Assembly (NCBI RefSeq): GCF_900119895.1
Contig: NZ_FQLR01000004.1
Location: forward strand, 1,488,001-1,552,000
DNA: 64,000 nucleotides
Reading direction: 5' to 3'
Source of the DNA: Collinsella phocaeensis
GTDB lineage: Bacteria > Actinomycetota > Coriobacteriia > Coriobacteriales > Coriobacteriaceae
In this document: piece by piece, positions 18,097 through 44,944 of the stretch
Layout: each line of letters opens with the position of its first letter
How positions within the stretch are numbered: the stretch's first letter is position 1
Made by a program: the position numbers and the translations under genes
The notes under the pieces: generated by a model
What the model saw: the letters and a program-made list of their open reading frames with translations, nothing else
The model's database searches: none
Told to the model about the DNA's origin: nothing

Positions 18097-18344
18097 ATGC
18101 CCCTCCCATGCCTCATGCGCCGCTGCCGGCTGGCGCCGCGGCAATCCGCCGGGCAGCGGGCGTACCCGCCGGGGGCCGCACGGCTTCTCCGCCGCAGCGC
18201 CCGACGGCCATCACGATGTGGGCAATTATACCGGCGCGGCGCGCAGGCGTTCCGACCGCGGAGTCTCAACCCGCAAAGGTTTCCGTCCTGTTGCGCGATG
18301 GCGGCCCGGCTCGCCAAGCGCTCCATCCTGATAAAGTAGATAGA

Positions 18345-18480
18345 CCGATAGAGGCGCGGGAACGATGAGGCGCGGGCGAGCCGGCAGGCGCAGACCCCGT
18401 GCGGGGGCAATCCTGCCGAACCCGGCCGCCGGGCACGGCGCGACGGGTGGGCCCGCGGGGAACACCCGCAGGACTGTCTG
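18345..18480 (+). promoter_or_regulatory. Lysine riboswitch (L box)
   Basis: The 5' consensus GATAGAGGCGCGGGAACGAT at 18347-18366 matches the lysine riboswitch core (GAUAGAGGUGC...). A cggcagg/cctgccg stem, the tGCCGAA box, the ggcacggc segment, and the closing GGACTGTC (18471-18478) follow in consensus order; GATAG and CTGTC pair to form P1. Helices are short and very G+C rich. It lies 42 bp ahead of lysA, so lysine should repress lysA-dapA-dapB-dapH. No U-tract terminator is seen between it and the start, so control is probably translational. Confidence 0.8.
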
Positions 18481-18521
18481 CATCGTTTTTGCAGGAGCGC
18501 TATCCGCACAGAGGAGCTTCC

Positions 18522-41055: not shown

Positions 41056-41063
41056 TGCCGAAA
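41056..41063. repeat. Left target site duplication of the IS (tgccgaaa)
   Basis: Matching 8-bp copy is at 42231-42238; 8 bp is the duplication size typical of IS1595. Confidence 0.85.
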
Positions 41064-41095
41064 TCCGAGAGTAGCGAATCGTGCGGGTCCTATAC

Positions 41096-42064
41096 CTACC
41101 TTGAGCTGCGGTAATGCGCATCGGTCATAAGCAAATGGCGCATGACCCTTGCCGTTTTGGGCCATTTCTCCTCGTCGCGTCGGACGCGGAACAGGTACAC
41201 GAACCAGTTCAGGTAGGACTGCAGGTTGCCCTTCTTCATCCCGGGGAAGCGGAATAGGTAGCGCCTGAGCCACGAGCACAGGTTGTTCACGAGCTCCATC
41301 GCCTCCAGGTACACAGGGTCCTTCACGTCTGCCTTGTACGCCTCGTCGGTGCACTTGGCGGCCCTCACGAGGCTCATGTGGGCCTTCTCCATGTCGTGGA
41401 CGATGACGGAACCGGGCGCTATGTGCGACAGCAGCGCGTCCCTGATGCGCCTTGAGGAGGGCTTGCCGTGGCCGCATATGGCCACGACGGCGTTCTTGTA
41501 GGCGTCGATGGCCACCGCGATGCAGATCTTGTTCTTCGACAGGCCCCTCTTGGGCACGTAGTCCGCGCTGCGGACGATGTCGGAGTCGGTGAGGTAGAGC
41601 TCGTCGATCCAGACGCGCCCCCTCAGCACCAGGCGGTCCTGGTAGCCGTCCACGGTGGCGAAGACGCGGTGGCGCCACTCGAAGGCCGTGGTATGGGCGA
41701 TGCCGCACACCTCCGCAGCCAGGTCGACCGGCGCGTTGTAGCACATGCAGGTGATGAAGCGCTCCCACACGGGGAGCTCCTTGTTGCTCGACTCGAGCAC
41801 CGTCCCCGTCAGCGCCGAGAAGGCCTCCCCGCACCTCGGGCACCGCCACCTCTGCCGCCCGGCGGGCGTCTTGCCGTCCCTCGAGCAGTCGGGGAAGCCG
41901 CACGACGGGCAGGGCGGGCTCGGGCGCCAGAGCTCGGCGGCCTCGGCGAGGGTCCCGGCTCCGATCAGGGCCCTGCACCTTCTCTCGGCGACTGCGGAGC
42001 AGAGGGCCTCGAACCCGTCGGCGTCGAGCGACGAGACAAGGCCCCCGTAGGGGTTTGCGACCAT
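41096..42064 (-). CDS. IS1595 family transposase (ISXO2-like)
   Basis: A 322-residue transposase, apparently full length. N-terminal zinc ribbon CPSCGFPDC...CPRCGEAFSALTGTVLESSN, then the DDE-type domain with WIDELYLTDSD (first Asp) and VIVHDMEKAHM (second Asp), and an acidic/Asn residue in the C-terminal helix before the LFRFPGMKKGNLQSYLNWFV motif seen in the IS1595 family. The ATG at 42064 has AGGA eight bases ahead, just downstream of stem A of the leader. Confidence 0.93.
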   Translation of the reverse strand: MVANPYGGLVSSLDADGFEALCSAVAERRCRALIGAGTLAEAAELWRPSPPCPSCGFPDCSRDGKTPAGRQRWRCPRCGEAFSALTGTVLESSNKELPVWERFITCMCYNAPVDLAAEVCGIAHTTAFEWRHRVFATVDGYQDRLVLRGRVWIDELYLTDSDIVRSADYVPKRGLSKNKICIAVAIDAYKNAVVAICGHGKPSSRRIRDALLSHIAPGSVIVHDMEKAHMSLVRAAKCTDEAYKADVKDPVYLEAMELVNNLCSWLRRYLFRFPGMKKGNLQSYLNWFVYLFRVRRDEEKWPKTARVMRHLLMTDAHYRSSR

Positions 42065-42079
42065 GGCGAATTCCTATCC

Positions 42080-42154
42080 GCCCAAGCGGCCACCCAGCCA
42101 GGAATGTCGCCAAACATAGGACCGGGTGGCCGCTTGGGCAAATCTATGTTTGGC
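42080..42154 (-). repeat. Two interleaved inverted repeats in the IS leader
   Basis: Stem A: 42080-42095 with 42124-42139, 16 bp perfect (gcccaagcggccaccc). Stem B: 42109-42118 with 42145-42154, 10 bp perfect (gccaaacata). Order A-B-A'-B', so both cannot nest; they could form a pseudoknot or two alternative folds. They lie 16 bp upstream of the transposase start, next to its ribosome binding site. Confidence 0.75.
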
Positions 42155-43654
42155 ATCCCCATGGTACCCCGAGTGGTGTCAGGCGGGTGCGGTGAGGTTA
42201 CCGCGACCCGCACGATTCGCTACTCTCGGATGCCGAAATAATGAAATAGAACGAGCATATCGTTTTCTAGAGCGTCTTGTAACGTAATTTGACACGCAAT
42301 GACATGGTTGAACAAGGCGAACACGTCGTATCCGTCCGTGCGACTCGGCGTAGCCGTCATACCCAACATGAAAGAAGGCTTGAAATAATTCAAAATCGCT
42401 TGATAGCTCGACGCACCCGCACGATGCGCCTCATCGATAACGATATAGTCGAAAGCCCGCGGATCGAAATCATCAAGATGCATGCAAATCGTCGAGCACA
42501 TCGCGAACAGGCAGGTGGCATCCTCGGCGTCAGGGTCGGCTGGATCATACAGGCCATACGAGTAATCGTCTCCCAGAAGGCGGGAATAGCTTTTCATGGA
42601 TGCCGATAAGATACGTTTGCGATGTGCGAGAAAGAGGATACGGGCAGGCCCCACAACCTGCACATCGAAAGCAGAGAGGTATGTTTTCCCGGTCCCCGTC
42701 GCCGAAGCGAGCAGTGCACGCGGCTCGCGGCGTCGATGGAGCACGGAAAGCGCTTCGAGCGCGCTCTTCTGCATGGCGTTGGGCCGAATGTCGGGACTCG
42801 ATGACATGCAGGACACCGAGGACCTGGGCACGGCTTCAAACGACCGCGCAGCCTTAGATGGAACCAGCCCGTGTTCGCGACGGTGGCACCGTAGGAATCA
42901 ATCCATTCCGCAGTAAGGTCGACACTCTCGACCGAATCCCATAGCCCGTCGAACTCCGAACGAATCGCATGGATCATCTCCCCGTTTTCATGCGATCTGA
43001 ACAAGATATTCCACTCTTTGTTGCAGGCCAGGGCAGTCTGGGTGAGATTAGAGCTGCCGAGGATAACGGTAGCCGCTCCATCGGACTCGAAAACATATCC
43101 TTTGGCATGCAAGCTGCCCTGATAAACCCGAGTTGTGATATTGCCGTATTCGAGCAGCTTCCCAAACACTGCTGGACTATTGAAATTGAGATACGTCGAG
43201 GTGAGAATCCGGCCTTTGATACCTCGATCCCTCAGCTCGGATAGCACCTGAACGAGCATATGCAAACCGGACTCCGCGACAAATGCGACACACAGATCAA
43301 ACGATTCGCAGGTAGAAAGTTCACGCTTGACAACCGATAGAACGTTCCTGCCGCGCCGCTTGTCATTGGTAACGACCTGAGGGCGATAGCCCTCCTCCGA
43401 AGGATATGCAGAATCCAGAAACGCAGTCTTCACGGCAGACAGCAACGCGGTATCGAATGAATCGCTGCGGGAACGCATGGCACTCCGATCTATCGATTGA
43501 CGCGCCCAGGATAGCAAAACGGACCGACATGCTCGTCATCCACAATGGATCGCTTCGCCAATATGGCCAGATGCCTGTCCGGCGCCCGCAAACAGACATG
43601 CTCCCCTACAATGGTCGGGACTATACGAATCCACCACCCACAAAGGAGCCCGCC

Positions 43655-44237: not shown

Positions 44238-44304
44238 CCCCCCTGCCAACGAGAGGAGCGCGAGATCGCGGCGCATCGTCCTCCACGGCAAGGGGTCGTT
44301 TCGA

Positions 44305-44459
44305 CCTCTCGCCCCCGAAGTGAGTGGATTTTTGCGAGACCTTCAGATACGCTTCGTCTAGCTAAAGTACTTATCTGGCCTTTTGACGCTGGATTCGAGC
44401 CCATATCACGGGTCTTGCGATACGATCGCGATTTTTCCACTCACTTCGGGGGCGAGAGG
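44305..44459. repeat. 155-bp palindromic element with 24-bp inverted ends
   Basis: 44305-44328 and 44436-44459 are perfect 24-bp inverted repeats (beginning cctctcgcccccgaagtg). The 107-bp interior is A+T-richer, with its own partial pairing (cagata/tatctg; T-rich ends), so the whole may fold as one long hairpin or behave as a MITE. No gene. No clear target duplication flanks it. It lies 75 bp before a deformylase-like gene. Confidence 0.8.
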
Positions 44460-44533
44460 GCTCACCAACCCCCCCTCCTCCACCTCTTATCGCCCAGAGA
44501 TGCCAAGATGCCACCGAACACCTGGAGAACCCC

Positions 44534-44944
44534 ATGATCCGACCGATCGTCACGTCCCCGCTCATGCTGCGCCTGCCGTCCGAAGACGCCACGCCCGCCG
44601 ACGCCGCATGCGGTCAGGACCTGCTGGACACGCTCGCCGCCCATACGCACGAGTGCGTAGGCCTCGCCGCCAACATGATCGGGCAGCGGCGGCGCATCAT
44701 CGCCGTCGACGACGGGGGCGCCCCGCTGCTCATGTACAACCCAACGATCCTCGAGCGCAGCGGCCCTTACGAGACACGCGAATCCTGCCTCTCGCTCACG
44801 GGAGAGCGCGAGACCGTACGCTACCGCACGATCAAGGTCACCTACCTCGACGCGGACTTCCGGCCTCGCACGCGCGTCTTCCATGGCTTCACCGCCCAAA
44901 TCATCCAGCACGAGGTCGACCACTGCAACGGTATCGTGATCTAG
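44534..44944 (+). CDS. Peptide-deformylase-like protein, active site intact
   Basis: A 136-residue protein with the deformylase motifs GLAANMIG (motif 1), ESCLS (motif 2, metal Cys) and QHEVDHCNG (motif 3, HExxH). Unlike its paralogue at 8777-9196 it keeps the catalytic Glu, so it may be catalytically active, though it is short and deviates in motif 2 (E-S instead of E-G). Start follows TGGAG. Function as the main deformylase of the cell is uncertain, since a standard def could be elsewhere. Confidence 0.85.
   Translation: MIRPIVTSPLMLRLPSEDATPADAACGQDLLDTLAAHTHECVGLAANMIGQRRRIIAVDDGGAPLLMYNPTILERSGPYETRESCLSLTGERETVRYRTIKVTYLDADFRPRTRVFHGFTAQIIQHEVDHCNGIVI

Follow-up and report, generated by a model that had tools for sequence, protein, structure and literature searches.

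The 155-bp palindromic element at positions 44305 to 44459 of the window, i.e., of the 64,000-nucleotide stretch of DNA analyzed here, belongs to a family of nested palindromes that are dispersed in genomes of Coriobacteria and in which mostly lineage-typical outer arms enclose a core motif that is found across lineages. We propose, with a probability of roughly 0.4, that the arms of these DNA elements constitute a double-stranded site for a putative sequence-specific protein and that the elements spread rarely and in a non-autonomous manner.

The left arm (positions 44305 to 44328, plus strand; CCTCTCGCCCCCGAAGTGAGTGGA) and the right arm (positions 44436 to 44459, minus strand) are each 24 bp long, and an inverted-repeat comparison revealed that they are exact reverse complements of each other (24 of 24 positions). 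In a random 64-kb sequence of the same composition, some 8e-7 such perfect repeats with a spacer of at most 300 nt are expected. Both arms have an imperfect outward extension (positions 44292 to 44304 and 44460 to 44472, respectively), and these extensions pair in part, resulting in an inverted repeat of 37 nt with 86% complementarity (44292-44328/44436-44472). The 107-nt interior has a G+C content of 46.7%, compared to 66.4% for the window. T tracts, read from the letters, are located immediately inside the left (positions 44329 to 44333) and the right (positions 44432 to 44435) arm; an A or T tract inside the left arm, on one strand or the other, is present in most copies of the host genome. 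Alignments of the copies placed the core motif CCAGATAAGTACTTTAGCTAGACGAAGCGTAT, the version in this copy of a conserved CCAGTTGAGYRCTTTAYC..GATAAAGYGTACT motif, at positions 44347 to 44378 of the minus strand; the plus orientation of the family corresponds, for this copy, to the minus strand of the window. The inner GAGTAGAC/GTCTACTC repeat is below the scoring threshold in this copy, and the left arm can form a 5-pair hairpin by itself. The 14 bases flanking each arm show no target duplication. The element lies between two predicted genes of the isochorismatase and peptide deformylase families, both on the plus strand. The latter (positions 44534 to 44944, plus strand; PF01327) encodes a protein of 136 amino acids with the motif variants GLAANMIG, ESCLS, and HEVDHC, which differ from the usual peptide deformylase motif forms. 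The initial annotation had reported perfect 24-bp inverted ends, an A+T-rich interior, no obvious target duplication, and a position in front of a deformylase-like gene, and these four observations were confirmed.

The host assembly (2,105,457 bases in 4 contigs, 98.79% complete) was searched with the element, which resulted in 28 matches, mostly to the arms. The 12-mer CGAAGTGAGTGG of the left arm occurs 21 times in the host genome, in every case inside an element of the family, and the same 12-mer read backwards, used as a control, had no match. There are 12 copies, namely, 9 with two arms and 3 degraded ones in which one arm is altered, and the arm core span amounts to 132 to 133 bp in 9 of the 9 two-armed copies. 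All 12 copies are intergenic and have different neighbors, as judged from genes called with a home-made codon scorer. Their interiors have diverged strongly save for the motif CCAG(T/A/G)T(G/A)AG..CTTTA..GAAGYRTACT. The search for other copies that the initial annotation had proposed thus yielded 12 dispersed intergenic copies, instead of the single copy at the same site in all relatives that it had named as favoring an RNA gene over a mobile element.

The family extends well beyond the host genome. A first model built from 16 sequences (R1) had a match in 35 of the 43 genomes of the genus. A second model of 38 sequences (R2), applied with a threshold of E 0.001 to a sample of 297 genomes of the order, had matches in 85 of these, including 40 of the 43 genomes of the genus; the matches represent 11 of 107 genera and 3 of the sampled families. 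R2 holds a long inverted repeat, and weak matches among these may be other palindromes. Genomes G005, G015, and G031 had no R2 match. By eye, the core was also recognized in further genera of the taxonomic family to which the genus belongs (G066, G071, G087, G104, G234, and others) and in two more families (G178, G271, and G250). Two contigs of Melainabacteria (L054 and L056) contain palindromes with an 11-bp stretch of the host-genome arms; by eye they lack the core motif, and these repeats were set aside as unrelated. The literature searched, mostly at the level of listings, did not describe such an element for Collinsella.

The comparison of arms and cores showed that these two parts of the element differ in how they are distributed among genomes, and several observations can be made. 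(i) Across 40 elements from 8 genomes, the arms, of about 20 to 30 bp, are mostly common to the copies of one genome and different in most genomes. There are exceptions to this pattern, since several arm variants occur within G032 and within G087, the Collinsella aerofaciens-like genomes have several arm families, and one arm type spans genera, being present in the host genome (G000), in BA40, and in An7 (G087). (ii) An ungapped comparison covered 44 of 46 element segments (2 BA40 segments were misplaced and dropped, and 10 of 56 elements with a weak or misplaced motif had been omitted beforehand). Identity of the two arms was 0.67/0.66 within genomes versus 0.38/0.40 between genomes, that of the core motif was 0.60 versus 0.57, and that of the middle was 0.38 versus 0.33. 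Core identity per genome ranged from 0.43 (G000) to 0.72 (G026). (iii) For 26 of 44 copies, the nearest core relative came from their own genome, compared to 7.3 expected and a maximum of 16 in 1,000 shuffles, which indicates some recent copying and implies that arms and cores are not fully decoupled. (iv) The same arms are found on different size and core classes, with three size classes in G064 and two each in G034 and G066. (v) The better preserved copies contain an inner repeat (GAGTAGAC..GTCTACTC) that is concentric with the outer arms.

The lengths of the elements fall into few classes. Among the matches listed, 141 loci from 34 genomes, with at most nine places scored per genome, had lengths of 148 to 152 bp (48 loci), 157 to 161 bp (83 loci), 170 to 171 bp (8 loci), and 145 bp (2 loci), with none at 153 to 156 or 162 to 169 bp; the covariance model may favor certain lengths. 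The spacing of the inner repeat, scorable in 50 of 122 elements with orthologues included, was 63 to 65 bp (27 elements), 74 to 76 bp (19 elements), or 85 to 86 bp (3 elements) in 49 of these 50, the remaining one being at 67 bp, and the center of the inner repeat is constant relative to the arms to within half a base. The length classes are spaced by about 10.5 bp, which fits a turn of B-DNA; they may instead correspond to a few (three) ancient lineages.

Orthologous copies provided information on how the element changes in place. All nine G234 sites with the exact arm have a counterpart in G216 (8 among the fetched stretches and 1 retrieved by search); the elements are inherited vertically between these sister species and are located at different sites in more distant species. 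In seven of the eight pairs, the remaining one being dropped because its arm was not found, 6 of 319 arm sites differed, compared to 77 of 744 interior sites and 74 of 560 sites in the 40-bp flanks (Fisher, 3e-7 for arms versus interiors and 1e-9 for arms versus flanks); in the regions 100 to 300 bp away, 154 of 2,800 sites differed. None of the 20 positions of the 10-bp arm ends varies among nine orthologues from C. aerofaciens-like genomes, as opposed to 28 of 60 positions in the 30-nt flanks (Fisher, 7e-5), and variation was found at 5 of 17 positions of the arm extensions, 18 of 44 of the core, and 7 of 20 of the inner repeat, which is thus not specially conserved. Both sets of orthologues were located via their arms, which biases them towards conserved arms. 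At a site located by its flank alone, G216 differed at 2 of 40 arm positions, 20 of 109 interior positions, and 4 of 80 flank positions, and G187 at 1 of 40, 20 of 109, and 1 of 80, respectively; here the arms changed more slowly than the interior but not more slowly than the flanks. Arms thus change slowly relative to interiors, and they are probably constrained in place. Hypermutation of the interior, an idea prompted by the copy pair c725/c730 described below, is not needed, since the interiors of other orthologues drift roughly like the nearby intergenic flanks; the flank-located site, where flanks changed more slowly than the interior, is the exception.

A structured RNA, which the initial annotation had considered alongside a mobile element, is a possible but doubtful alternative. 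The element would be transcribed and form one long hairpin, in which the arms would be stem P1 and the core would bind a protein. The folding of the element is indeed very stable (z -9.5), as expected for any long palindrome. In the structure named for this model, 89.0% of the cells are paired, compared to 66.1% in shuffled controls and 38 to 49% when the structure is slid, and changes on both sides were found in 31 of its 36 pairs. Mismatches in the inner hairpin were more often G-U than A-C (102 to 34), as were those in the inner repeat of the nine orthologues (13 to 9), and of the two strands, the one with the motif has the more stable fold in 28 of 38 elements. The G-U excess of the inner hairpin and the strand difference in folding favor a folded single strand. 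This excess is, however, absent from the arms (29 G-U to 28 A-C in 95 oriented elements) and from the 12 pairs around the inner repeat (68 to 63 in 67 scorable elements), of which only 65% pair at all. The lack of such a bias counts against an RNA because a single-stranded fold should tolerate G-U more, whereas protein sites should be indifferent to it. Furthermore, the arm sequence is kept in orthologues beyond mere pairing, loop lengths correspond to few steps of about 10.5, the motif is on the strand of the genes in 4 and on the opposite strand in 4 of the 8 tandem settings in the host genome (counted by hand), and no promoter-like site was found in the 155-bp copy.

Searches for known RNA families and predictions from alignments addressed the RNA reading as well. 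Searches with the covariance models of Rfam 15 at gathering and relaxed thresholds provided no convincing match over the elements; the sole match over an element was mir-2767 at chance level (L066, E 0.66, 26.4 bits versus a cut-off of 69), and Collinsella-1 (RF01700), assumed to be present in the searched library, had no match. RNAalifold on the first alignment retained the arms alone, and in a pair-excess scan of a larger alignment the arm helix was the only strong helix. As regards the structured RNA of the initial annotation, one inner hairpin has a G-U excess, the nested palindromes lack such an excess, and Rfam has no convincing counterpart. Other observations made in the course of these searches were a match to V_AS7 (Vibrio RNA AS7) near an element (L065, 1928-2096, minus strand; E 6e-12, below the gathering score) and a lysine riboswitch (RF00168, 63 bits) at positions 18341 to 18510 of the plus strand; at gathering thresholds, Rfam has no other match in the window. 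The window contains no tRNA. By eye, a perfect internal hairpin of 20 bp around TAAG is present in the core of one element (L272, about 745 to 795; G234); this hairpin perhaps arose from template switching.

The term mobile is based here on the dispersal of the copies and on their differing sites. An inverted-repeat scan over 650 bp upstream of the yebC-like and proC-like genes, where the host genome has copies, detected no comparable element in 29 of 29 relatives each (42 of the 43 genomes contain the gene, each search returned 30 loci, and the upstream neighbor is not always the same gene). The similarity between the copies c725 and c730, which are separated by 4.8 kb, is confined to 213 bp, and five copies in G066 are about 75 to 79% alike over the element (93% for one pair), with largely different flanks. 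Dispersed copies with matching ends, sites at which relatives have no comparable element, and pairs that are homologous essentially over the element alone are in line with a plain IS-derived MITE, i.e., with short derivatives produced by deletion and mobilized by a transposase that reads the arms as terminal inverted repeats, and like MITEs the elements are short, non-coding, and flanked by terminal inverted repeats. We nevertheless consider this origin unlikely. (i) Exact arm matches in G000, G001, and G066 are paired only at the spacing of the element or are solitary. Pairing by hand resulted in 17 pairs with spans of 135 to 137 and one single match in G001, and in 26 pairs (22 of 128 to 129 and 4 of 139) and 5 singles in G066; no longer-spaced exact arm pair that could represent an autonomous element was present in these three genomes. 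(ii) It is the core motif that is retained and the ends that change, which is the reverse of what is seen in a MITE. (iii) Arms change more slowly than interiors in orthologues, unlike in a plain decaying MITE. (iv) No target duplication was seen beside the arms of the copies inspected.

The same data bear on what the initial annotation had said about mobility. Its description of the element as MITE-like holds as regards the dispersed intergenic copies and the two sites at which relatives have no comparable element; the search for empty sites that it had suggested yielded no clean one in relatives, the intergenic regions being too diverged to read, and the slow change of the arms does not fit that description. 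As it had stated, the ends differ from those of the IS in the window (positions 41063 to 42231), which has its own perfect 27-bp ends (41063-41089/42205-42231) and an IS1595-like transposase just under the Pfam cut-off. This IS adjoins reading frames with ResIII and PLD domains that overlap in different frames, perhaps a broken gene. A different palindrome, of 80 bp, nearly uninterrupted, with 38-bp perfect arms and without the family core, precedes the yebC-like gene of L139 (G008) by about 170 nt. The statement that the element has another mobilizer or none is narrowed by the exclusion of RAYT as a general mobilizer (see below), and no mobilizer was found. A phage, plasmid, or viral origin was likewise rejected, because two exact patterns had no match in viral contigs and a blastn search with the 155-bp copy had none in phage and plasmid records. 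In all, the elements could not be traced to a RAYT, an IS, an Rfam family, a phage, or a plasmid.

It is improbable that the hairpin serves as a two-way transcription terminator or as a stabilizer of mRNA 3' ends. Copies between divergent genes are few (2 of 49 placed copies versus 5 of 19 gaps of at least 200 bp in the window; Fisher, 0.016; 60 copies examined, orthologues included, of which 11 were not placed), and the 155-bp copy contains two terminator-like sites, both on the plus strand, compared to a mean of 0.2 in shuffled sequences. A terminator, however, requires pairing and neither a common arm sequence throughout a genome nor a conserved core. Very improbable are REP/BIME elements mobilized by a RAYT (Y1) transposase: although the palindromes are lineage-typical and common to the copies of a genome and the Y1 family occurs in 37 of 43 genomes, the copy-rich genomes G001, G026, and G032 have no Y1 match at the limit used, which largely refutes RAYT as the general mobilizer, and by eye the arms in most lineages are not hairpins on their own and no transposase was recognized beside host-genome copies.

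The reading that we prefer is thus that of a DNA site. The ascertainment bias towards conserved arms, an inner repeat that is not specially conserved, and the difference in folding between the strands slightly lower its probability, to the value given above, and slightly raise that of a structured RNA, which is the foremost alternative. Repeats that are typical of a lineage and nearly unchanging in place imply a partner protein, and we infer that this putative sequence-specific protein would bind both arms as double-stranded DNA on matching helix faces, with a specificity that would change between lineages. The inner repeat and the core may bind a conserved partner, and the resulting protein-DNA complex would act in place, much like the complexes of BIMEs with gyrase or IHF. 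New copies would arise rarely, by a non-autonomous, transposition-like process catalyzed by a putative enzyme. Neither a binding protein nor a mobilizer was identified in this analysis. A more far-reaching and tentative proposal is that the family is a new class of chromosomal elements in which lineage-specific "address" arms and a core shared across bacterial families evolve separately, so that copies of any core type would have to match a putative, diverging DNA-binding system with their arms in register on the helix. If so, the separately evolving arms would represent a concerted turnover of a genome-wide recognition code in bacteria, with neither a transposase nor RAYT as its carrier. With a single core, many arm codes, and few spacings, the family offers, in common residents of the gut, a comparative system for studying the concerted replacement of a genome-wide DNA recognition code.

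Several known systems resemble this family in part. Palindromic structured-RNA candidates from human microbiomes have been detected on both strands and discussed as REP sequences or terminators (PMC8040213), and the Coriobacteria elements are likewise palindromic on both strands. In the part of that article covered here, the palindromic examples are mostly or entirely from Bacteroidetes, and the single mention of Collinsella concerns a 51-bp element upstream of L7/L12 (PMC8040213). Our analysis suggests that the element works most like a BIME, that is, as a dispersed, protein-bound extragenic palindrome, and assigns it to none of the named families. BIMEs act in place with gyrase or IHF, and the BIME-1 or RIB elements of enterobacteria consist of inverted REPs around an IHF site. 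As in BIME-1/RIB, the elements studied here are dispersed, intergenic, and about 100 to 150 bp long, with inverted ends that are specific to the species and enclose a conserved internal motif. They differ from these in that their ends are longer and pair mutually, most of them, as judged by eye, not being hairpins by themselves, that they need no RAYT, that they have few fixed lengths, and that their core is common to several bacterial families. The Correia elements (NEMIS) and ERIC are palindromic, MITE-like repeats of about 105 to 155 bp, with inverted ends of about 25 bp in the case of Correia. The Coriobacteria elements share with them their size, the palindromic MITE-like form, and the ability to fold as RNA; a TA duplication was not seen in them. 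The main difference is in the relation between ends and interior: Correia/NEMIS and ERIC keep both within one group, whereas in the Coriobacteria the ends change between most lineages and the core motif is retained.
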